From assembly GCA_902551985.1 (NCBI GenBank), contig CACDFI010000004.1, forward strand, positions 1 through 64,000: a stretch of DNA of 64,000 nucleotides. The letters are read 5' to 3'. Positions 10,693 through 21,729 of the stretch are shown here, piece by piece. The notes under the pieces were generated by a model. That model was not told where the DNA came from and did not search any database. It saw nothing but the letters and a program-made list of their open reading frames with translations. Every line of letters starts with the position of its first letter. Positions within the stretch are counted from its first letter, which is position 1. Position numbers and translations under genes: made by a program. This DNA comes from an uncultured Pelagibacteraceae bacterium. GTDB lineage: Bacteria; Pseudomonadota; Alphaproteobacteria; Pelagibacterales; Pelagibacteraceae.

Positions 10693-11088
10693 ATGAAGCT
10701 AACTATACCTTACTATTTACACAAAGCTGGTGCGGGTTTTCCGTCCCCTGCCACAGACTATATTGAGGAAGATATCGATTTAAATGTTCACTTAATCAAA
10801 AATGTTCCAGCAACCTTCATCATAAGAGTTCAGGGAAAATCGATGGTGGATGTGGGAATTAATGATGGCGATCTATTAGTTGTTGATAAGAGTTTAACAC
10901 CAAAAAATTTCTCAACAGTTATTGCAAATGTTCATGACGAGCTAGTTGTTAAAAGTTTAGTTCAAGAAAGAGATAAAAAATTTTTAACATCAGGTTCTAA
11001 AGAATTTACAGATCGAATTTTAATTAATGAAGATGAAGATATATTTATTTGGGGAGTTGTAACTTATGTCATCCATTCAGTATACTAA
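10693..11088 (+). CDS. umuD: UmuD, autoproteolytic subunit of DNA polymerase V
   Basis: A 131-residue S24/LexA-family serine protease that cleaves itself when RecA filaments form; the shortened form activates UmuC for translesion synthesis. The cleavage pair is Ala14-Gly15 in KAGAGFPSP, the nucleophile Ser50 lies in GKSM, and the general base Lys87 in VVKS. All sit ten residues earlier than in E. coli UmuD. There is no DNA-binding domain, which excludes LexA. umuC overlaps its end by 23 bases. The promoter and LexA box upstream indicate SOS induction. Confidence 0.93.
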
Positions 11089-12346
11089 AAAAATAGCACT
11101 TATTGATTGTAACTCTTTTTATGTTTCTTGTGAAAGATTATTTAATCCTAAGATAAGAAAAAAACCTGTTGTCGTTTTATCTAACAATGATGGTTGTATA
11201 ATTTCAAGATCAACAGAAGCAAAAGCTTTAGGTATTAAAATGGGAGAGCCCTACTTCAAGGCAAAAGATATTATTATTAAAAATAGAGTTGAGGTTTTTT
11301 CATCTAATTATTCTTTATATGGAGATTTATCTAGAAGAGTGATGAGAACTCTAAAAAGATTTAACTCTGCTATTGAAGTTTACTCTATTGATGAGGCTTT
11401 TTTAGATTTATCGAATTTTTCAGATGATGAAGTTGAAAAGGTCGGAAGAGAAATCAGAGAGACAGTTTTAAAGTGGACAGGTATTCCAACTAGTATTGGT
11501 ATTGCTAAGACAAAAACTTTAAGCAAAGTCGCAAATCATATTGCAAAGAAAAAAAAATCAGGTGTAACAAGTTTGATAGGAATTGAAAATATTGATCCAA
11601 TATTAGAAAAAGTTGAAATTAACGATGTATGGGGTGTGGGAAGACAGTTAACAAAATTTTACCATAAAAACGGAATTTATAATGCAAAACAACTAAAAAA
11701 CAAATCAAATACCTGGATAAAGAAAAACTCTAATGTTTTGGGTTCAAGAACTGCAATGGAGTTAAGAGGAGTTCCTTGTATTGATTTAGAGACAACACAA
11801 ACAAAAAGAAAAAGCTGTGTTGTATCTCGTTCTTTTGGCCAAAGAATTGAAAAATATCAAGAATTAAAAGAAGCAGTTGCAAATTATTGTTTGAATGCGT
11901 CTGAAAAAATCAGATCTGAGTCTTTAATTGCAAAGTCAATTACAGTTTTTGTTAGAACAAGTCCTTTTCAAAGTAGATTTGGATATTATTCAAACTCAAA
12001 AACCATAGATTTTGCGATTTCAACGAATAATAGTATTGAAATAGTTAAAACTGCTTTGGTTGCTTTAGACTCTATCTTTAAAAACGGTTATCGTTATCAA
12101 AAAGCAGGTGTAATGCTTACTGGTTTATCTAATGAAGATGGTAGCAAGAACCTATTTTCTTCTGAAAAAGATGAGAAAATAAAGGGTTTAATGAAGTCTA
12201 TTGATAATACCAACTATCGATACGGAAGATCTACGCTAAGTCTTGCTAGTGCTGGTGTTCAAAAAAGATGGAATATGAGAAGAGAGCATTCTTCTAAAAT
12301 AGATACAGCTGACTTCTATTTGCTACCAACAATTAGAGCTAATTGA
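11066..12346 (+). CDS. umuC: UmuC, Y-family DNA polymerase V catalytic subunit
   Basis: Error-prone translesion polymerase. The 426-residue frame has the first catalytic aspartate in [16 protein letters not shown] (Asp14), the second acidic motif in [11 protein letters not shown] near 105, the helix-hairpin-helix region [10 protein letters not shown] near 190, and a little-finger domain followed by a UmuC-type C-terminal segment with [11 protein letters not shown] near 395. The start overlaps umuD by 23 bases, as is usual for this operon. Its stop overlaps the convergent lyase-like gene by 8 bases. Confidence 0.95.
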
Positions 12347-13298
12347 TTTTGATTTCAGGTAATGGCTTAGTCCATTTAATTGATTTAGTAATTTTTTTTC
12401 CGTAAGTAGGCATTCTATAACTGCTTTTTCTATATCTAACATATGAAATAGACTCTTTATTTTCTGATAAGTATGAGCATTTATCCTGATCTAAAATTTC
12501 CTCACATTTATCGCTGAAACCAAATTCTTTTACTGTTAAAGATTGTGTTGGAGTTTCATTTAAAAATGCATCTTTAAGCCATCGATAAAAACCCCATTTA
12601 AATGTATAACCATTACCTATGGTAAAGTTTGGACCATATACTTCAAAAACTTTCTTATTATCAACCCATGCTATTATCTCTCCGTTATCCTCTTTTGAAG
12701 CTAATATTTTGAAACTTACAGTTATGTAATTTTTAAATTGATCAACAGTTCCCAAGGGAAATTTATATGAAATTTTATCAAAATTAGAATTTTCAGGATC
12801 GCCTTTTAAATAAAAAACTTCTTTAGTAAAGTTTAACTGATGAACAACAGAATTTCCTCTATATTCTAATTTCATCCAAGGCAAAAGTCTCGAATTTCCT
12901 TTATTAGCAATAACTTGAAAAAAACTTCCTCCTACTGCTGGATGTATTGGAAAATCATTTAGCTTAAATGTATATTTTACATAAACGGGCTTTTTAAATT
13001 TTCTTGGCTTTTTTTTATTTGCCATTTCCCATCTTTGATTTCTTGCACCTGTTCTTTCCCAATCTTTTTTATTTCCTTTAAATTTAGTATCTAAAGTAAT
13101 TTTTATTGCCTTACCATCTGTGTCTTCAAAAATAGAAAGTGCTTTTTTTTTTGAAATAGATCTTGTATCATTTTTCAACTCTGAACTAGCTTTTCCTAAT
13201 AAAACTTCCTTTTTTAAAAATTTGTAAGGGTTTTCAGATGCATTAGCAAAATGTGATAATAAGAAAAAAAATATTACAAACAAAAATTTTTTTAACAT
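12339..13298 (-). CDS. Secreted heparin-lyase-I-like / PL20-like protein (copy A)
   Basis: Last gene of the nine-gene operon. The 319-residue protein starts with a Sec signal peptide ([20 protein letters not shown]) and then shows the beta-jelly-roll pattern of the polysaccharide lyase family around PF14099. Visible elements are [20 protein letters not shown] near 48, the [20 protein letters not shown] core near 111, [12 protein letters not shown] near 190 and an [11 protein letters not shown] strand near 208. It is a diverged paralogue of copies B and C. The substrate is not known, and lyase activity is inferred from the fold only. It overlaps the stop of copy B by one base and overlaps umuC tail to tail. 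Confidence 0.55.
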
Positions 13299-14302
13299 TA
13301 AAAAGGTCTTGGGTTATTTGGGTAGCCTAAATTTTTGCAAGTACTAGATTGTGGAGCAGTTTTACATAATACAACAACCCTAACTCCTTTAAGTTGTGAT
13401 TGATCTGATAGTTGACTTATAATTTCATTACATCCACTCCATAAATCTTCACATTTGTCAGCTTTACCAACGTTAGAGTATCTAATTTTAAGATCTGGAA
13501 CTTCTAAACCTTCATTGGTTGCCTGATGCATATGGTGTCTGTATGGTCCAAATTTAAATCTAACACTTGAGGCTCCTGCTAAAGTATCTCCGAAGTAACT
13601 GGATCTTAAAGTACCATCAATCCATAAATGCATAAAACCTTTTTCAGCCCACTTTATATTTAATAAAATATTTACCCACTTACCTTTTAATGGAGAAAAG
13701 TTAGGATCAAGATTAACAACATAATGTTCTGGATAAAAGTATTCAGCGCCCACCACTTCATTTTCATACGCTGTATAATTTGGAGAGTTAAAGTTCCATG
13801 TAAATCTATTATTTACAATGGCAAACGATCCATCATGGGTTTTTTCGCCTTTTCCGTAAAGTTTTTTAAAATCAAATAAAGATATCGTATGTTTATCAGT
13901 CCTAATATCCTCTGGAACAAAATAACCAACTCTATACCATTTTGTTTTATTTTTTTTTGTAGTTTCTTTGTAAGGTTCCATGATTTGAAATCTTTGAGCA
14001 TGACCTTCAATGCCAAATCTTTTCCAATCAAGTTTATGCCCTTCATATGAATACTTTAAATCGAATTCTATTCCTTTTTCGGCAACGCCCATTCTATCCT
14101 CAAGCTTGTCAAAAAATTTATAAATATTCGGATTTTTAATATTTCTTGTATTAAAAACCATTTTGTTATCTGATTGAGCTTTTAGTACATAATTAGCAAA
14201 ATCTTTCCTTTCTTGCTTTTTCATATTTGTATGCCATTTACCAGCGTACGAATATGATGGAATTAACAAGAGAGATAGAAGAATGATTAAAATTTTTTTC
14301 AT
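13298..14302 (-). CDS. Secreted heparin-lyase-I-like / PL20-like protein (copy B)
   Basis: A 334-residue paralogue with a Sec signal peptide (MKKILIILLSLLLIPSYSYAG). Family-like strands include GKWVNILLNIKWAEKGFMHLWIDG near 206-230 and SSVRFKFGPYRHHMHQ near 244-260, the latter corresponding to the FRFGIY strand of copy C. The His-rich YRHHMH loop could be part of the active cleft, but no catalytic residue can be assigned by eye. It lies 3 bases after copy C and overlaps copy A by one base, so the three copies are co-translated. Substrate unknown. Confidence 0.6.
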   Translation of the reverse strand: MKKILIILLSLLLIPSYSYAGKWHTNMKKQERKDFANYVLKAQSDNKMVFNTRNIKNPNIYKFFDKLEDRMGVAEKGIEFDLKYSYEGHKLDWKRFGIEGHAQRFQIMEPYKETTKKNKTKWYRVGYFVPEDIRTDKHTISLFDFKKLYGKGEKTHDGSFAIVNNRFTWNFNSPNYTAYENEVVGAEYFYPEHYVVNLDPNFSPLKGKWVNILLNIKWAEKGFMHLWIDGTLRSSYFGDTLAGASSVRFKFGPYRHHMHQATNEGLEVPDLKIRYSNVGKADKCEDLWSGCNEIISQLSDQSQLKGVRVVVLCKTAPQSSTCKNLGYPNNPRPF

Positions 14303-14305
14303 AAA

Positions 14306-15217
14306 TTATTTTGGTAAATTATTACAATCATGAAATAAGGCTGTTTTCTTACATTTTTTTCCACTTCTAAAAGAATCATAATAAGCAACTTGTGTTTTTA
14401 CAGGAATTTTTCTTTTTCCATTGTAAATTCCAAAACGAAAACTAGGTCCCATTTTTTTTCCATCTTTTTTTCTTTTGAGCAACTTACCAAATGTTTTGCC
14501 TTTTGATTGATAAACTAATTTATCATTAATCCATAAATCAATGAAACCATCCTCTTTATCAGTCCAATTTACGTTCATTAAAAAATCATGCCATTTGTTG
14601 TGCAAAGCCTTTGTAGGTATAATTAATTCTCTTCCATACCCTTCGCATTGGAGCACTCCATCTTTTTCAATTGTAACTCCTTCTCTTTCTAATTTGAACA
14701 CTATTGGTATTTCGGGACAATCTTCATCAAAACCAGAAGAATTAACTCTATTCAATTGCTTAGTATAGTCACTTGGCATTTTAAATTGTCCTAAGATTGT
14801 ATAGGCAGGTCTAATATGATTTGTACCTTCGGGGATATACATAGACCATGCATACCAAACATTTCCTATATGCCCTTTTGCACTAGATGGATAATTTCCT
14901 TCAAAAATAACTTCACTCCGTCCAGCTTTATTAGATCTATCACAATCTCGTCGATGGCAATCACCATCTCTCATTTCAAAACGTAATGAATATTTTCCAT
15001 CTCTAACAATTTTTGTCTCATATCTTAAATTCCAAGTATTTGGCGCGATACGTCCATGTGTTTCAATTTTACCCCATGATCCTGTTTTCTCTGGCCATTT
15101 TATAAATTTCGAGTGTTTAAAAACATAATTTTCATCTAAATATTTTTTAGGCGGATCTTTTGCTTGAGCAAAAGATGATAAAATTAAAATAAAAAAGATA
15201 ATTAAAAGTTTTTTCAT
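14306..15217 (-). CDS. Secreted heparin-lyase-I family polysaccharide lyase-like protein (copy C)
   Basis: The most typical of the three paralogues. After a signal peptide (MKKLLIIFFILILSSFAQA) come KYSLRFEMRDGDC with a Cys-rich insertion, GRSEVIFEG, the WYAWSMYIPEG strand, WHDFLMNVNWTDKEDGFIDL near 210, FRFGIYNG, and QVAYYDSFRSG. This is the pattern of the heparin lyase I/PF14099 family of secreted enzymes cleaving uronic-acid polysaccharides. The ATG at 15217 is preferred over 15226 because it forms an ATGA overlap with the preceding stop. Extra cysteines (CHRRDC, CPE, LQC) suggest disulfides in the exported protein. Confidence 0.72.
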   Translation of the reverse strand: MKKLLIIFFILILSSFAQAKDPPKKYLDENYVFKHSKFIKWPEKTGSWGKIETHGRIAPNTWNLRYETKIVRDGKYSLRFEMRDGDCHRRDCDRSNKAGRSEVIFEGNYPSSAKGHIGNVWYAWSMYIPEGTNHIRPAYTILGQFKMPSDYTKQLNRVNSSGFDEDCPEIPIVFKLEREGVTIEKDGVLQCEGYGRELIIPTKALHNKWHDFLMNVNWTDKEDGFIDLWINDKLVYQSKGKTFGKLLKRKKDGKKMGPSFRFGIYNGKRKIPVKTQVAYYDSFRSGKKCKKTALFHDCNNLPK

Positions 15218-16347
15218 TTTATACAATTAGCATTAAATCCAATTAGATTGTCTATGCCATACTTTGATCTTTTGGCTAAATAAGTAATATCTTTTTCATG
15301 TTTTATTCCAGTTACCATTTCCATTAAGGTATCAATAGCTATAGCCTCTTGATGTGTGTGCTTTCTAGCATTATGTTTTTTATATTGATTATTTTTTTGC
15401 TTACCATCGTATTTTCTTGAGGAGAAACTTTCATAATCAGTGATCCCTAAATTTAATACTTCTGCTGCTTTAGTAATTCTATTCATAACTGAGTCTGGAA
15501 CTTTAGCCCCCCAATTTTTAGCTAAATAGATGTAACCTAAAGCTGAATTTAAACCATAAGAGTGATACCATAAGGCTCGAAACCCTCTAAAAGAATTGTT
15601 ATTGATATAGCCATCATCATAAAACACTTCCTCTATATTTTTAAATCTAAAATTGAATTCTTTTGCTGCTAGTTTTTTATTGTTTGTCCAATGAGCATAA
15701 GCTAAGTTTGGAATTCCTCCGTTTCCCATTGCATAAAATCCTTTTTCTTTCTCTAAAAATTCTTCAGGCTTAATAAATTTTTTATGCATTTTTTTAATAT
15801 ACTTGTTAACAATTTTAATTTCTTTATCACTTAAGTAATCTTTAAGATAAATTGCTATCAGCAAATAATTTGTAAAAGCATCCCTTGCAAATTCATATGC
15901 ATGATACCAGCAAGGTGCCTCGGGATTTCCATCTTTCCAACATTTTGGTTTCTTTTTTAACTCTTCTTTACCGATTGTATCTAGTAAAACATTTGCTTTA
16001 GCTATTTTAATCAATATTCCTTTAGCGGCATCAATGTCAGTTTTATCATTATTACCAATTGCATTATGGGTAGCAACAGCATATGAGCTCATTGGACCAG
16101 TTAGATTTAGGTGATTTACACTTCTAGAATTACCCAGCGCCCATTCACTCATCCAATCTAAACGTATTAAGCTTTCAATTCTAGCTTTTTTATATTTAGA
16201 TTTAAAAGTCTCACCACCCACATATGAGCATGATTTAATCTTATCTATATAAAAATGTTTAGGAAAAGATATATCTTTAGATTTAACTTTTGCTTCAGCA
16301 GATAAACATAAAAATATACTTAATAAAATTAAGAAAATTTTTTTCAT
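15214..16347 (-). CDS. Secreted alginate-lyase-like (PL5-type toroid) protein
   Basis: A 377-residue exported protein with signal peptide MKKIFLILLSIFLCLSAEA. The helical body resembles the (alpha/alpha) toroid of the alginate lyase family PF05426. The best marker is RGFRALWYHSYGLN near 257, which parallels the RAL-x-YH segment holding the catalytic Arg and Tyr in AlgL. The Asn-His pair of AlgL is less clear: the matching area reads GIPNLAYAHW, so catalysis may be altered. In Pseudomonas AlgL clears stray polymer in the periplasm during alginate export; a similar house-keeping role is possible here. It is coupled to DUF1501 (stop and start share a base). Confidence 0.6.
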   Translation of the reverse strand: MKKIFLILLSIFLCLSAEAKVKSKDISFPKHFYIDKIKSCSYVGGETFKSKYKKARIESLIRLDWMSEWALGNSRSVNHLNLTGPMSSYAVATHNAIGNNDKTDIDAAKGILIKIAKANVLLDTIGKEELKKKPKCWKDGNPEAPCWYHAYEFARDAFTNYLLIAIYLKDYLSDKEIKIVNKYIKKMHKKFIKPEEFLEKEKGFYAMGNGGIPNLAYAHWTNNKKLAAKEFNFRFKNIEEVFYDDGYINNNSFRGFRALWYHSYGLNSALGYIYLAKNWGAKVPDSVMNRITKAAEVLNLGITDYESFSSRKYDGKQKNNQYKKHNARKHTHQEAIAIDTLMEMVTGIKHEKDITYLAKRSKYGIDNLIGFNANCIK

Positions 16348-17504
16348 TAAATTTTAAATAATTTGTCAGATAAATCTTGGAGTTTATCTCCCCAGAAAAC
16401 TTCTTTTTGAATTCTTTTAAAGTCTATATCAAAAACGGTAGACATTGCTGAAGCGTATACAGATCTAGCATCAATTGTTGAATTTAAATCTCTTCCTTCA
16501 AATAATTCCTTTCGCTTAAGTCCTGGCCAGTCTGTATAAACTTGAGATTTTTTTAAAAGACCACCTGCCATAAAAATTGCAGATCCATAACCATGCTCTG
16601 TTCCACGACCTCCATTTTGTTTAATTGTTCTTCCAAATTCTGTTAAAGTTAAAACTAGAGTATTTTCTATCTCTGATCCTAGACCTTTCTCTAAACTTTT
16701 AAAAATTGAATCCATTTCAATCAGACTATCTGAATGTGAACCATTCACACCGCCTTGTGCGGCATGTGTATCAAATCCATCAACTTCAAAAACTGCAACC
16801 CTTGGACCATTGATTTTTTTAAGTTCTAAACCTGCCTTATGGGCTAATGATGAATTCTTTCTAGACATAGAGTTGCCTCCATTATTCATCATAGATCTGT
16901 TAGCAATTATCTCCATCATATTTGCTAAGTCATGTTCGGATTTATCTGCATAAACTGATTTCAAAAGTTGCAAAAGTTCTGTTCTTGGAAGTCTTTTTTT
17001 TGAAGGATAAAAATTATCATTACTAGGAATTCCTCTAAGAAGTAGAGGCATTGGTAATGCCAATGCAAGACCATCACCTTTCAATTCTGCTAATTTCATT
17101 CCTCTTCCTAACCAACCAGTTTTTATGGAGTAAGGGATATGACCTCCAGTCTCCATTAAGTTTTGCCCATCAAAATGAGATCTTTTAGTATATGGAATAT
17201 TTGTTGCATGAACAATTGCTCCCAGATTATTTTGCCACAAATTATGAAAATTTTTTAGTTTAGGATGAAGTGCGAAATCAGAATTTAACTTTAGTGTTTC
17301 ATCTAAAATCAAATCTTTTCTTCTTTTCTCAAAATTCTTATCTCCAATTATTGGAACAGCACACAAACCATCCATTCCACCTCTTAACATTATAACAACG
17401 AGATTTTTTTTCTTGTCCGTATTTGCTAAAACTGGAAAATTAAAGCCAGCTAAAAATAATGTAGTAGCTGAACCTTTTAAAAAATTTCTTCTTGATATCT
17501 TCAT
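16347..17504 (-). CDS. DUF1501 protein with Tat signal
   Basis: A 385-residue member of the DUF1501 family, related in fold to alkaline-phosphatase/sulfatase-like proteins. The twin-arginine signal MKISRRNFLKGSATTLFL is clear, so it is exported folded. Family marks are MLRGGMDGLCAVP near 39, VDGFDTHAAQGG near 246 and LTEFGRTIKQNGGRGTEHGYG near 287. The function of the family is not established. It is regularly paired with DUF1800, as here, where the two genes overlap by 4 bases (17501-17504). Its neighbours suggest a role in making or modifying an extracellular polymer. Confidence 0.88.
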   Translation of the reverse strand: MKISRRNFLKGSATTLFLAGFNFPVLANTDKKKNLVVIMLRGGMDGLCAVPIIGDKNFEKRRKDLILDETLKLNSDFALHPKLKNFHNLWQNNLGAIVHATNIPYTKRSHFDGQNLMETGGHIPYSIKTGWLGRGMKLAELKGDGLALALPMPLLLRGIPSNDNFYPSKKRLPRTELLQLLKSVYADKSEHDLANMMEIIANRSMMNNGGNSMSRKNSSLAHKAGLELKKINGPRVAVFEVDGFDTHAAQGGVNGSHSDSLIEMDSIFKSLEKGLGSEIENTLVLTLTEFGRTIKQNGGRGTEHGYGSAIFMAGGLLKKSQVYTDWPGLKRKELFEGRDLNSTIDARSVYASAMSTVFDIDFKRIQKEVFWGDKLQDLSDKLFKI

Positions 17505-18928
17505 GATTTAAGCGTCTCCGGTAAATTAAATAATATTACATGTTTATGAACAAGCTCTTTATGCTGATTTATAATTTGTAAAATTTCCCTTGGATTATCA
17601 TAATTTTTTTCAATCATTTCTTCATAAAATTCATTTGTCTGTGACTTGCCTGACTTTTTGTAATAAGCCTCTCTTGCATAAACCAGCCTTCTAATTAGTA
17701 ACTCTGGTGACATCCAATCCTCTGAAATATCTGACCACCCATTCGGTTGTTTTGCTAAATAAGGATGTTGTCCAAGCTCATCCATCAACCTTTCTAAAGC
17801 TCTTTGATCCTTAATCGGTTTATTTCCAAGTTGATAAAGATCCATAAATGAAGGAGAAGGGATTAAATCAACATCAGCCATTTTGCTCATTTGCAATAAC
17901 CAGTTTTCTGGATTCTGGAATTTATTGTATTTATCAGAATAATTAAAAGCAACTTCTACAGCGGCTTTGTGAACCTCTGGTAAAAAACCATCTGATTTTT
18001 CCCAAGCTTTTATAATTGGTTCTATCATTTCTTCAGTTGGGTTATCTGTGATCAAATATCTACAAAGTTTCATTGCAATAAACTTTCTACAGGAAGGGTG
18101 GTTAACAAGATCTGTAATTGCAACTGATAAACTTTTTCTACCTCTTTTATATTTTTTACCTAAAACTATTTTAGTACCAGGCTCATGAGCATCAGGGTTA
18201 AAATGAACATCTCCTGTCTCTAATCTTTTCTTTCCCCACTTAGGTCTCCATCCACTCATTATATATGCCATTTGAATTATATCTTCTTGTGTATATCCAC
18301 ATTCTGGGGAAACAGTGTGAAGTTCTAGAAGTTCTCTTGCATGATTTTCATTTACACCTTTTGTCTTTCCTTTCTCTCTTGCCCACCTTGCTTCTTGACT
18401 CTTAGGTCCTACGTTCTGGTCATTATCTAGATGATGTATCATTGACCAACCGATGGTTGCCTCTTGGGCCATTTTTTCAAAGTTTTGATTCATGTTAGCT
18501 CTAATGATCTCTCTTTGGTAAGCACCAGTTGTATATTGTGCTAAAAAATCCTTTTCACTGATTGCGAAATGATTTCCCCAGAAGTACCAAAGTTTTGCTA
18601 AAACTGGTGTTTCACTTTTTAATGCTTCTGAATACCTTATACAAAGTTCAAGGTTCCACCAAAATTTTTGACCAGTTGCATGCCTTAACTTATTTTTTTC
18701 CCTTTTGTAGCCTTCTTTGTCATTTTTAAATTTTTTTCTTAGAACTTTTCTATCTCCATAAACGTAATCTCGATAATAATTTCTAAGTTCTTTCTCGGGT
18801 AAAATTTTCCCCCTCCAAGAAAATTCAGGAATATCGTTTAATTGATTTGTTGCCCATATTAATGGGTCAGAGGGTGTTTTATCGTCTGGTCCGAGTCCAA
18901 ATGCTACTTTACGATAAAAATTTTTCAT
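17501..18928 (-). CDS. DUF1800 protein
   Basis: A 475-residue DUF1800 protein of unknown function. Recognisable segments are KLWYFWGNHFAIS near 142, the strongly conserved NENHARELLELHTVS near 196, YTQEDIIQMAYIMSGWRP near 212, FNPDAHEPG near 243 and LVNHPSCRKFIAMKLCRYLI near 276. No signal peptide is visible, in contrast to its DUF1501 partner, so either it stays inside or the start is misjudged. It is 18 bases after the GT2 gene and overlaps DUF1501 by 4 bases. This pair is more familiar from Planctomycetes, Bacteroidota and large-genome proteobacteria than from streamlined marine bacteria. Confidence 0.88.
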   Translation of the reverse strand: MKNFYRKVAFGLGPDDKTPSDPLIWATNQLNDIPEFSWRGKILPEKELRNYYRDYVYGDRKVLRKKFKNDKEGYKREKNKLRHATGQKFWWNLELCIRYSEALKSETPVLAKLWYFWGNHFAISEKDFLAQYTTGAYQREIIRANMNQNFEKMAQEATIGWSMIHHLDNDQNVGPKSQEARWAREKGKTKGVNENHARELLELHTVSPECGYTQEDIIQMAYIMSGWRPKWGKKRLETGDVHFNPDAHEPGTKIVLGKKYKRGRKSLSVAITDLVNHPSCRKFIAMKLCRYLITDNPTEEMIEPIIKAWEKSDGFLPEVHKAAVEVAFNYSDKYNKFQNPENWLLQMSKMADVDLIPSPSFMDLYQLGNKPIKDQRALERLMDELGQHPYLAKQPNGWSDISEDWMSPELLIRRLVYAREAYYKKSGKSQTNEFYEEMIEKNYDNPREILQIINQHKELVHKHVILFNLPETLKS

Positions 18929-18946
18929 AAATAATTTTAAAATATA

Positions 18947-19816
18947 CTATTTTAAAATGTCAATATCTGAAATATTTGTTAAACAATTATTAAATTCTGT
19001 CATATTTTCTCGTCCTGAGATTTTTAGAATAACTAGACCAAAAATAATGATTAAAGCCAAAGGTATTGCTGTAATTACACTTATATAATCAGCAATTATT
19101 ATTAGATATATCGCATAAAATGCTATTGATCTAAAGATCACTGAAGATTTAAATACTGCAATAATTGCTAGGGAATGTTTTATTAAGTTTAAAAAACTCA
19201 TCTTTGAAGGGCCAAAGTATCTTGAGCCTCTTATTGACGGAGAATTAATTAAATTACTTTCAGTTTTTGCTAATGAACCAGTAAAACTACTCCAAGTTGC
19301 TTTCTCATCAATTAATTTCTTAACTGTTTCCTTTGTAAGACAAGTGAAATTTCCAAATTTTATAAATTTTCCCGTAAATGTATAAGTAATTATTTTGTGC
19401 AAAAAATAACAAATTTTAAAAATTAAACCTTCTGATCTTTTTACTCTTTCTCCAACAATACTTTTATTAGGATTATCTTTAATTTTTTCAACAAAGTTTT
19501 TTATCTCTTCTGGCCTATCTTCTCCATCACCATCCATAGGTATCACATAATCAAAATCTTCATTTTCTGAAATATGTTTTAGTCCAACAGCTATACATCT
19601 TGCATGGCCACTATTATTTCTCATATTTATTAATTTTATTGATTTTATATTTATTAAATTTTTATTTTCTAAATTTTTTTCTTCTGTTGATGCATCATTA
19701 ATTACAATTACTGAAAATGAAGCATTTAAATCAGAAATATTTCTATCAATTTCTTCAAGTAATATTGATGTAGATCTAAAGTCATTAAATACTGGAATTA
19801 ATATTATAATGTTCAT
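18947..19816 (-). CDS. Family 2 glycosyltransferase with C-terminal membrane helices
   Basis: A GT-A fold transferase like the polyprenyl-phosphate sugar transferases (GtrB/Dpm1 type). It starts MNIIILIPVFNDFRSTSILL, has the nucleotide aspartate in VIVINDAST, the DxD motif MDGDGEDRP near 94, and two hydrophobic helices near 215-270 that would place it in the inner membrane. The ATG at 19816 overlaps the stop of a 41-codon gene (TGATG) and is preferred to the TTG at 19819. With the GT39 gene upstream it probably forms a lipid-linked sugar donor system: GT2 loads the carrier, GT39 uses it outside. Confidence 0.83.
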   Translation of the reverse strand: MNIIILIPVFNDFRSTSILLEEIDRNISDLNASFSVIVINDASTEEKNLENKNLINIKSIKLINMRNNSGHARCIAVGLKHISENEDFDYVIPMDGDGEDRPEEIKNFVEKIKDNPNKSIVGERVKRSEGLIFKICYFLHKIITYTFTGKFIKFGNFTCLTKETVKKLIDEKATWSSFTGSLAKTESNLINSPSIRGSRYFGPSKMSFLNLIKHSLAIIAVFKSSVIFRSIAFYAIYLIIIADYISVITAIPLALIIIFGLVILKISGRENMTEFNNCLTNISDIDILK

Positions 19817-19941
19817 CAACTCACTGAGCCTATTAATCTAAACAAAGAGGCAAAAAAACCATAACCTGAAAGTTCTATTAAAGCAATTATTCCAATAATG
19901 AATAAAAGTTTTTTATTTTTTTGGTTTAATTGAAATTTCAT
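19816..19941 (-). CDS. Small single-pass membrane protein (41 aa)
   Basis: A short gene wedged between the GT39 and GT2 genes. ATG at 19941 overlaps the GT39 stop (ATGA), and its own TGA overlaps the GT2 ATG. The product has a basic start (MKFQLNQKNKK) and one hydrophobic helix (LLFIIGIIALIEL), ending GYGFFASLFRLIGSVS. Coupled start and stop codons argue strongly that it is translated. I do not recognise a family. By position it could be a small partner of either transferase, as Dpm2/Dpm3-like peptides are for Dpm1, but that is only an analogy. Confidence 0.6.
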   Translation of the reverse strand: MKFQLNQKNKKLLFIIGIIALIELSGYGFFASLFRLIGSVS

Positions 19942-21233
19942 TTATATTTTATACACTCCATATCTCTATTACACATGTAAAGATCCTTTGAACTATAAAT
20001 CCACTTTGGTCTTTCTGGAAGATGATAAGATATATTTCCTGCAATCCACTCATTACCCTTAACATATTCCATTTTTCCAAGATCATTTGCTTCTGTTTCA
20101 TAAAAATTTTTAGCCTGTATAGCTAAATTTTTTCCATTAAAATCAGTTCTTTTGTCAGTTTTTGAAATAGAAACATATGCATATAAAATTGGGGAAATTA
20201 AAAATAAGACTAAAAAGAGAGAAGAAAAAGCTTTCATTTTTTCAAAATTGATTTCAGATTTGAAAATATAAACAAATAGCAAACCAAAATTTATATAAAA
20301 CGGTGTCATCCACATAGTTCTTATTTTAACACCCATAGTAAAAGATGTTAAAAAAATAAATAAAAGAGGGATTAAGTTTATTGATAACAAAAATAATAGT
20401 TTATCGTCATTCAAATTAATATTTATTTTAAATTTGTTTATTAATACTAAAATCATAAGTAAAAATGGTATCAATATTACAATTTGTTTTAGTAAAAATA
20501 TAAATGGGTGCATTAAATGACTGAAAATATTTACCTCATCTGATCCAGTTCTCATTAGTCCATAAGTTATAGTTACATAATCATTCTCGGATAACCAAAT
20601 AACATGAGGAGATAAAATTAAAAAGAATGGAATTAAAGATATCAAACACTTAAAATTTGTTTTTTTGTTAATGATTAAATAAATTAAAAGAACAGCTATT
20701 GCTAAACCTAAATAGACAAATAAATATTTAGAAAGAAACCCGAGACCAGAAAAAAGACCGAGGAATATCCAATCTAATATTTTATTACTTTTAATTCCTT
20801 TCCATAAATAAAAGATAGAAAGTGACCAAAAGGGGATGAGACATACGTTTACGTTAAACTCAGGTGTGGTGAAGTTATAGAAATAAATACCCTCTAACAA
20901 TAAAACAGACAGAAAACTATAAATCCTATTTTCAAAAAAATCCTCTGCTAATTTAAAAATAACAAAGAACGAAATTAGAATACAAATTTGACTTAATAAA
21001 TAATACGCCCAATCTTGCGGTCCAAAAATAAAATAAATTATTTCCGGTAAAAAAGCGCTCACTGGAGGATGTTTATTAAATCCCCAATCTAAGTTGCTTC
21101 CCCACGCTAAGGCTTCGATTGTATCTAATGGCAAATTGTGATTTGTAAAAGTTGGAGTCAATGTCCAGATCAATAAGTGTGATGTGATAAAAATATAAAA
21201 TAAATTGTTTATATTTTTTTTATAAATGGCCAT
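19938..21233 (-). CDS. GT39/ArnT-like integral membrane glycosyltransferase
   Basis: A multi-spanning protein (about 431 aa from the internal ATG at 21233; 437 aa if from 21251) of the PMT/ArnT superfamily, which transfers a sugar from a polyprenyl-phosphate carrier on the outer face of the inner membrane. The first periplasmic loop carries the acidic pair DTIEALAWG and the GFNKHPPVSAF segment typical of the family, followed by about ten hydrophobic helices and a soluble C-terminus with Cys residues. It is the first gene of the polymer operon and is divergent from dksA. The acceptor (lipid A, a protein or a polymer) is unknown. Confidence 0.75.
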   Translation of the reverse strand: MAIYKKNINNLFYIFITSHLLIWTLTPTFTNHNLPLDTIEALAWGSNLDWGFNKHPPVSAFLPEIIYFIFGPQDWAYYLLSQICILISFFVIFKLAEDFFENRIYSFLSVLLLEGIYFYNFTTPEFNVNVCLIPFWSLSIFYLWKGIKSNKILDWIFLGLFSGLGFLSKYLFVYLGLAIAVLLIYLIINKKTNFKCLISLIPFFLILSPHVIWLSENDYVTITYGLMRTGSDEVNIFSHLMHPFIFLLKQIVILIPFLLMILVLINKFKININLNDDKLLFLLSINLIPLLFIFLTSFTMGVKIRTMWMTPFYINFGLLFVYIFKSEINFEKMKAFSSLFLVLFLISPILYAYVSISKTDKRTDFNGKNLAIQAKNFYETEANDLGKMEYVKGNEWIAGNISYHLPERPKWIYSSKDLYMCNRDMECIKYK

Positions 21234-21262: not shown

Positions 21263-21290
21263 TTGACACTTAATAAATGATGAATATATT
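21263..21290 (+). promoter_or_regulatory. sigma70 promoter of dksA
   Basis: A perfect -35 TTGACA (21263-21268), a 16-base spacer and -10 TATATT (21285-21290). Transcription would start near 21297. That rules out the earliest ATG (21277), which lies inside the promoter, and supports the ATG at 21313. Confidence 0.7.
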
Positions 21291-21312
21291 CACCGAACTT
21301 ACAAAATTGAGT

Positions 21313-21729
21313 ATGGTAAAGATCTCTAAAAAATATATTCCAAAAGAAACTGAAAAATACATGTGTGCAAAACATCTCGCATATTTTAAACAAAAATTAA
21401 TGGACTGGAAAAAAGATCTAAAGAGAACAAATAATGAAGCAATATTCAATGCTTCAATGGATGACAACAGTGCTTCAGCAGACATTGTTGATCAAGCAAG
21501 TTCATACACAGAAAAAAATGTTGAAATGAGAGCAATCAACAGACAAATTAAATTAATTTCAAAAATTGATGGGGCTTTGAAAAAAATTCAAGACGGAACA
21601 TATGGCTTTTGTGAAGAAACTGCTGAACCAATTGGTCTTAAAAGATTAATGGCAAGGCCAGTTGCAACTTTATGCATATCAGCTCAAGAAAAACACGAAA
21701 AAGAAGAAAAAGTTTACGCTGATATTTAA
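21313..21729 (+). CDS. dksA: DksA-type RNA polymerase-binding regulator (two-cysteine variant)
   Basis: Binds the RNA polymerase secondary channel and works with ppGpp in the stringent response. The chosen start gives 138 aa (MVKISKKYIPKETEKYM), which matches the DksA N-terminus. The coiled-coil with its tip acidic residues (MDDNSASADIVDQAS) is followed by the C4-finger region. Only the first and third Cys remain (FCEETAEPIG and TLCISAQ); the second and fourth are Thr and Ala, as in redox-insensitive DksA2-like forms. The stop shares TTAA with the convergent GST gene. Confidence 0.9.
   Translation: MVKISKKYIPKETEKYMCAKHLAYFKQKLMDWKKDLKRTNNEAIFNASMDDNSASADIVDQASSYTEKNVEMRAINRQIKLISKIDGALKKIQDGTYGFCEETAEPIGLKRLMARPVATLCISAQEKHEKEEKVYADI

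Follow-up and report, generated by a model that had tools for sequence, protein, structure and literature searches.

Results

Genes at the locus

The 64,000-nucleotide stretch analysed here (the window), from an uncultured Pelagibacteraceae bacterium (contig CACDFI010000004.1), carries nine open reading frames (ORFs) on its minus strand at 12339-21233, placed and ordered as in a preliminary description of this DNA made from the sequence alone. They encode glycosyltransferases of the GT39 and GT2 families with a 41-amino-acid (41-aa) peptide between them, a DUF1800 and a DUF1501 protein, a protein resembling the lyases of polysaccharide lyase family 5 (PL5), and three proteins of the Pfam family PF14099. 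Comparison with relatives shows that this gene set is a single state of a modular Pelagibacter site, bordered by dksA and umuC, at which the GT39-GT2 pair is a constant anchor, the interval from GT2 to umuC holds exchangeable cargo, and two unrelated lyase families of the genus are concentrated.

The GT39 gene (19938..21233, minus strand like the eight that follow) encodes a membrane glycosyltransferase of the PMT_2 type (PF13231, 1.1e-31) and was given an ATG start at 21233, the mechanical ORF opening at TTG 21251. Behind it lie the gene for the lineage-specific 41-aa peptide, which has a single transmembrane segment (19816..19941), and the GT2 gene (18947..19819; PF00535, 3.8e-13), whose product resembles ArnC and polyprenyl-phosphate-sugar synthases. 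The DUF1800 (17501..18928; PF08811, 4.1e-73) and DUF1501 genes (16347..17504; PF07394, 4.3e-23) come next, both assigned as in the preliminary description. They are followed by the gene for the PL5-like lyase-fold protein (15214..16347) and by those for PF14099 proteins (a) (14306..15226, 105.7 bits), (b), which is divergent (13298..14302, 31.6 bits), and (c) (12339..13298, 42.8 bits). The constant far border of the variable segment is a umuC-like gene on the plus strand (11066..12346). A dksA-like gene on the plus strand (21277..21729) forms the near border beside gst, trxR, ferredoxin and proteorhodopsin genes, as seen from synteny in relatives whose flanks were fetched.

From GT39 onward the junctions between the nine ORFs are -4, -4, +18, -4, -1, -13, +3 and -1 bases, which bears out the earlier statement of overlaps or gaps of at most 18 bases. 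A promoter and terminator scan gave a site count not above that of shuffled sequence. Five products are predicted to be exported, as had been proposed: the PL5-like and the three PF14099 proteins have Sec-like N-termini and DUF1501 has a twin-arginine one, all judged from motifs and hydropathy only.

A constant anchor with exchangeable cargo

In a sample of 201 genomes of the genus, umuC was matched in 158, and GT39 and umuC lay on one contig in 119, between 912 and 31,980 bases apart. We read the gene content of 118 of these 119 sites; the one left out (G231) is sized for GT2 only. The order found in relatives with fetched flanks is dksA, GT39-GT2, a variable set of genes and umuC. GT39 was matched in 160 of the 201 genomes, and in 28 of the 30 genomes with a completeness of 90% or more and a contamination of 5% or less. 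GT2 accompanies GT39 in 117 of the 118 sites, directly adjacent in 106 and separated by one to four genes in 11; the single site lacking it (locus L112 of genome G217) has a GT39 match with three stop codons in the opposite orientation.

Downstream of this pair the content changes from genome to genome. GT39-GT2 stands alone in 29 of the 118 sites, and some lyase-type gene is present in 62. DUF1800 and DUF1501 occur in 27 sites, always both, and immediately after GT2 in 24. The PL5-like gene was found in seven sites, every one with DUF1800, and the PF14099 cluster in 39, namely 16 with DUF1800 and 23 among the 91 without it. A standard PF05426 lyase cluster (c1) is present in 25 genomes, a GH10-like protein with a Pfam match under the cut-off (c3) in 15, and a sulfatase island (c25) in eight. 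The standard PL5 lyase, urease, PEP carboxylase and sulfatase cargo is found with or without the DUF pair, the PL5-like gene and the PF14099 genes. These clusters are single-linkage BLAST groups and some labels span divergent members: one c1 member has no Pfam match and another matches PF05426 at 8e-32, and c22, c61 and c62, which also match PF14099 (c62 under the cut-off), were left out of the count of 39.

On a quick maximum-likelihood tree of umuC DNA, a gene that may itself recombine, the fewest changes needed were 7 for DUF1800, 5 for the PL5-like gene, 24 for PF14099, 14 for c1 and 10 for c3. The exact gene order of the window was absent from the other 117 sampled sites. In a scan of GTDB genomes for DUF1501, from which the best 80 of 364 confirmed loci were kept, all 80 of them SAR11, this cargo order recurred in L187 and L205, and likewise in L186 without the GT39 end. 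Fifty-two of these best 80 loci are complete from GT39 to umuC; 22 of them contain the PL5-like gene, 31 a PF14099 gene, and eight only the DUF pair. Across the sites read, GT39-GT2 is conserved at its fixed place, and the genes downstream are exchanged.

The two constant glycosyltransferases and the small ORF between them were characterized by profile and by spacing. The best NCBIfam model for GT2 is PRK10714 (ArnC), at 53.6 bits against a cut-off of 529, well short of an ArnC equivalog, and its Pfam matches are PF00535 plus chance-level families, with no chitin synthase family among them. The 41-aa ORF has no Pfam match; a similar peptide is nevertheless encoded in each of the 31 loci, from 30 genomes of which one was read twice, in which the GT39-GT2 gap is 96-156 bases. 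Fifty-two loci with a gap below 20 bases have no space for it, and the 11 loci in which other genes separate GT39 from GT2 were set aside in this count. Judged from this sequence conservation, the peptide is real and conserved.

Lyase genes are concentrated at the site

Among the 119 genomes with a resolved site, 30 of the 30 listed PF05426 matches and 70 of the 103 listed PF14099 matches lie inside it. On average the site spans 7.66 kb, roughly 1% of the genome, the assemblies measuring about 0.5 to 1.4 Mb. Matches in genomes with no resolved site (12 for PF05426 and 47 for PF14099, whose list holds at least 150) are not in these counts. The concentration of two unrelated lyase families beside one sugar-transferase pair is our strongest argument that the lyases and the transferases belong together, and it upholds the link between sugar transfer and uronate cleavage that had been drawn from the window alone. 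Part of it could come from recombination between homologous cargo.

In a wider sample of 197 genomes of the family, PL5-like matches were found in 16, two of them weak, and PF14099 in 68. Eight genomes of another genus (g4) carry the PL5-like gene. In one of these loci, L025, Pfam matches identify an NTP transferase of the GalU type and a UDP-glucose dehydrogenase followed by the PL5-like gene; L026, L027, L029, L030 and L033, compared by gene size and order, agree with it in both. L027 has a PF14099 gene just before the PL5-like gene, and L028 ends at a contig edge. In most of the g4 loci, though not in every one, the gene neighbourhood thus appears to connect the two lyase types with UDP-glucuronate. 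A UDP-glucose dehydrogenase (62% identity) is also encoded in the window's genome, on another contig.

The PL5-like and PF14099 proteins

The product of 15214-16347 scores 18.4 bits against the PF05426 cut-off of 22.2 and 21.4 bits against the NCBIfam AlgL model, whose cut-off is 429. Its AlphaFold2 model (mean pLDDT 70.5) superimposes on the PL5 alginate lyase 1qaz with Z 18.6 and rmsd 4.1 over 312 aligned residues. Altogether 22 PL5 structures top the list of fold matches (Z 17.4 to 18.6), and PL38, PL17 and other lyases rank lower (Z 14 to 17). R254, R257, Y261 and H262 are invariant across 14 sequences. The Arg-Tyr motif aligns with that of the PL5 lyases 4ozv/4ozw, weakly (E 0.18), and with 7fhz/7fi2 (E 2e-4). 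The key residues of AlgL given in the accessible part of PMC8829089 are R249 and Y256, and R254 and Y261 have the same spacing. As modelled, the protein is PL5-like by fold; by profile it lies outside PL5.

All three PF14099 proteins exceed the curated cut-off of 29.9 bits, (b) barely. The family is PL20/heparin-lyase-like. An Arg and a Gly-x-Tyr motif are kept in 58 of the 58 aligned PF14099-cluster proteins from the site. A sequence search with (a), the sole protein tried, retrieved no solved structure. The four lyase assignments of the preliminary description accordingly hold by profile for the PF14099 proteins and by fold for the PL5-like protein, but not by the PF05426 cut-off; the four products are probably enzymes that cut acidic sugar chains.

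A phage origin of the lyases was considered and rejected: neither the PL5-like protein nor PF14099 protein (a), the two that were compared, had a tblastn match in 50,697 phage records.

DUF1800 and DUF1501 form a two-gene module

The DUF1800 and DUF1501 genes overlap by 4 bases. The twin-arginine motif of DUF1501 is accompanied by a TAT_signal profile match of 0.0012, under the cut-off of that profile, and DUF1800 has no hydrophobic N-terminus by hydropathy. DUF1800 immediately precedes DUF1501 in 78 of the best 80 DUF1501 loci, and in the two exceptions (L200 and L230) DUF1501 starts within about 210 bases of a contig end. Genome G194 has its DUF1800 gene in two ORFs (L085:41-1487), because the gene is broken or because of a sequencing error.

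DUF1800 was found in 12 of the 197 family genomes, all Pelagibacter, and, in a sample of the class Alphaproteobacteria, in 54 of 190 genomes. The two genes are adjacent in 14 of 20 alphaproteobacterial stretches and in all three plasmid stretches; in the other six stretches the ORF caller or the models missed one or both of them, L317 giving no match at all. When models of eleven families of the site were run on these 20 neighbourhoods and three plasmid regions, only DUF1800 and DUF1501 matched. The pair is therefore a self-contained, all-or-none module, which in other Alphaproteobacteria stands without the neighbours it has at the site.

Profile searches of the PDB with DUF1800 and DUF1501 returned nothing at E values up to 10. 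The DUF1800 model has a mean pLDDT of 64.5 and a best PDB fold match at E 0.82, too weak to call the fold new. Profile comparison of DUF1501 with three cargo sulfatases gave a probability of 0.1, a value that, with two shallow profiles, does not disprove a relationship.

Other cargo

Urease genes form clusters c4-c10, of which c4 is present in 10 of the 118 genomes, eight of these with DUF1800. In the urease clusters at L080:11705-16540 and around 7295-9001 of L177, UreB and UreC are identified by Pfam and the rest by position. PEP carboxylase (c2; L155:2198-4888) occurs in 19 of the 118 genomes, never with DUF1800. A 716-aa cargo protein (L129:2348-4498) carries both PF00909 (ammonium transporter) and PF07228 (SpoIIE phosphatase) domains. 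The 820-aa protein c30 (L168:5644-8106) has no Pfam match and in several loci adjoins a partner of 158-181 aa and the GH10-like protein. Genome G164 has an insert between the PL5-like gene and DUF1501 (L020:11032-15735) that encodes an amidohydrolase, a FeeM-like N-acyltransferase, an acyltransferase and a choice-of-anchor I protein, the acyltransferase pair being similar to lipid synthesis genes. At the other side of the anchor, eight fetched relatives have a gene of 333-355 aa (c13; L076:3504-4505) between proteorhodopsin and ferredoxin, which the window lacks.

Discussion

Proposed editing of a surface glycan

One interpretation, to which we assign a probability of roughly 0.5, is that the segment between dksA and umuC is a modular surface-glycan locus of Pelagibacter whose exported lyases edit the cell's own uronate-containing glycan. 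On the inner side of the membrane GT2 would load a sugar onto polyprenyl phosphate; on the outer side GT39 would pass this sugar to a glycan or lipid. The Sec-exported lyases would act by beta-elimination on uronate-containing chains, either periplasmic or on the cell surface, and may thereby trim, clear or reshape the glycan, much as AlgL clears alginate in Pseudomonas; the lyase set would be swapped between strains as the glycan changes. DUF1800 lacks an export signal and its gene overlaps that of the Tat-type DUF1501, so the two proteins are probably folded with each other and carried through the membrane jointly via Tat. A further step is tentative: a constant pair of lipid-linked sugar transferases combined with interchangeable exported uronate lyases of two unrelated folds might let a strain reshape its acidic surface glycan by swapping, for example altering its recognition by phages or grazers.

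Several observations weigh against glycan editing. Polymerase, flippase and export families are absent from the Pfam matches of the nine products, so the nine genes are probably unable to make a polymer by themselves. Urease, PEP carboxylase, ammonium transporter and TauD-type genes are non-glycan cargo of the same site, and 33 of the 103 listed PF14099 matches sit outside it. Plain Fisher values, which ignore kinship, are 2e-5 for DUF1800 with the PL5-like gene and 0.002 for DUF1800 with PF14099, but a kinship-corrected test of gene association had at most five independent pairs on supported branches, a number with which no outcome could reach 0.05. Sequence alignment of the PL5-like protein shows no NNH motif, which in true PL5 enzymes holds the Asn-His dyad, but is ambiguous in this region. 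One of the eight g4 loci (L032) has neighbours of different size around the PL5-like gene. In L022 (9203-12434), from a different Pelagibacter genome, this gene lies between hisH-type glutamine-amidotransferase and hisA-type genes of a histidine operon, and in L023 it precedes the valyl-tRNA synthetase gene (valS); these two positions indicate that it moves independently.

Feeding is a doubtful alternative, in which secreted or periplasmic lyases break dissolved algal uronate polymers and their genes, as niche genes, are kept at a variable site. The urease, ammonium transporter and sulfatase genes would then be other niche genes at the same place, many lyase sets vary between close relatives, and a TonB-receptor match (PF00593) was found in 16 of the 201 genus genomes. 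The window's own genome, however, has no PF00593 match, in keeping with the preliminary description, which had noted no TonB receptor; this argues against oligomer uptake by that route and is compatible with feeding on monomers or through other transporters. The Pfam matches of the nine products also include no transporter or uronate catabolic family. Moreover, the lyases adjoin sugar-transfer genes, and in L025 (by Pfam) and L027 (by gene size and order) they stand beside genes for UDP-glucuronate synthesis.

It is unlikely that the interval between GT39 and umuC is simply a tolerated site of insertion and recombination, with no common function and with lyases accumulating through homologous recombination. 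The very mixed cargo, its fast turnover and the 29 of 118 sites that are empty past GT2 would fit such a site, but a neutral one would hardly gather so large a share of the listed matches to two lyase families in so small a part of the genome. Very improbable is a conserved nine-gene system making and trimming one uronate polymer, as first proposed from the single strand, tight junctions and plausible functions, which is mostly refuted by counts across relatives: only GT39-GT2 is constant, the exact set is seen in one of 118 sites (the window itself) and in two complete and one partial of the best 80 DUF1501 loci, and its parts are found freely without each other.

SAR11 bacteria rank with the most abundant cells of the ocean and are not known as polysaccharide users. 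The lyase cargo matters because Pelagibacter is not known to handle polysaccharides: a lyase site on a sugar-transfer anchor suggests either that an acidic surface glycan awaits characterisation or that an ability to cut uronate polymers has been overlooked. With respect to this site, strains form a natural series that runs from the anchor alone to full lyase sets.

Comparison with known systems

With the PL5 enzymes AlgL, A1-III and Smlt1473 the window protein shares the alpha/alpha toroid fold, as modelled, and the Arg-Tyr pair; it differs in its score under the PF05426 cut-off and in lying outside an alginate synthase operon, and its ambiguous alignment shows no Asn-His dyad. The other three lyase candidates resemble PF14099 polysaccharide lyases in scoring above the cut-off and in their conserved Arg and Gly-x-Tyr. 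In the accessible part of PMC8829089, AlgL is described as clearing polymer from the periplasm in Pseudomonas. The alginate operon presented there likewise places an exported lyase gene beside glycan assembly genes, whereas the nine genes of the window include no synthase or export genes and their lyase set varies between strains.

Operons of chitin synthase, DUF1800 and a Tat-type DUF1501 in other bacteria are reported in the portion of PMC5122149 available to us. The window resembles them in that DUF1800 adjoins a Tat-type DUF1501 gene and a GT2 gene is nearby, but this GT2 is ArnC-like and not a chitin synthase. In the available text of PMC3597751, DUF1800 appears only as a table entry.

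We found no earlier description of the lyase locus in the literature, as judged by titles and the openings of abstracts, with subscription papers mostly outside this survey. Islands of mostly hypothetical proteins are mentioned in the accessible part of PMC7318151. The hypervariable regions (HVR) 1-4 of SAR11 span genes 42-54, 524-568, 1162-1173 and 1214-1221 according to the available part of PMC2217521, which puts genes 629 and 631 immediately downstream of proteorhodopsin. The site resembles these regions in combining a fixed place with strain-variable gene content, but, in a comparison made by gene numbers, the published ranges miss genes 629 and 631. What is new here we read as a hypervariable SAR11 glycan locus with exported lyases as its main cargo.

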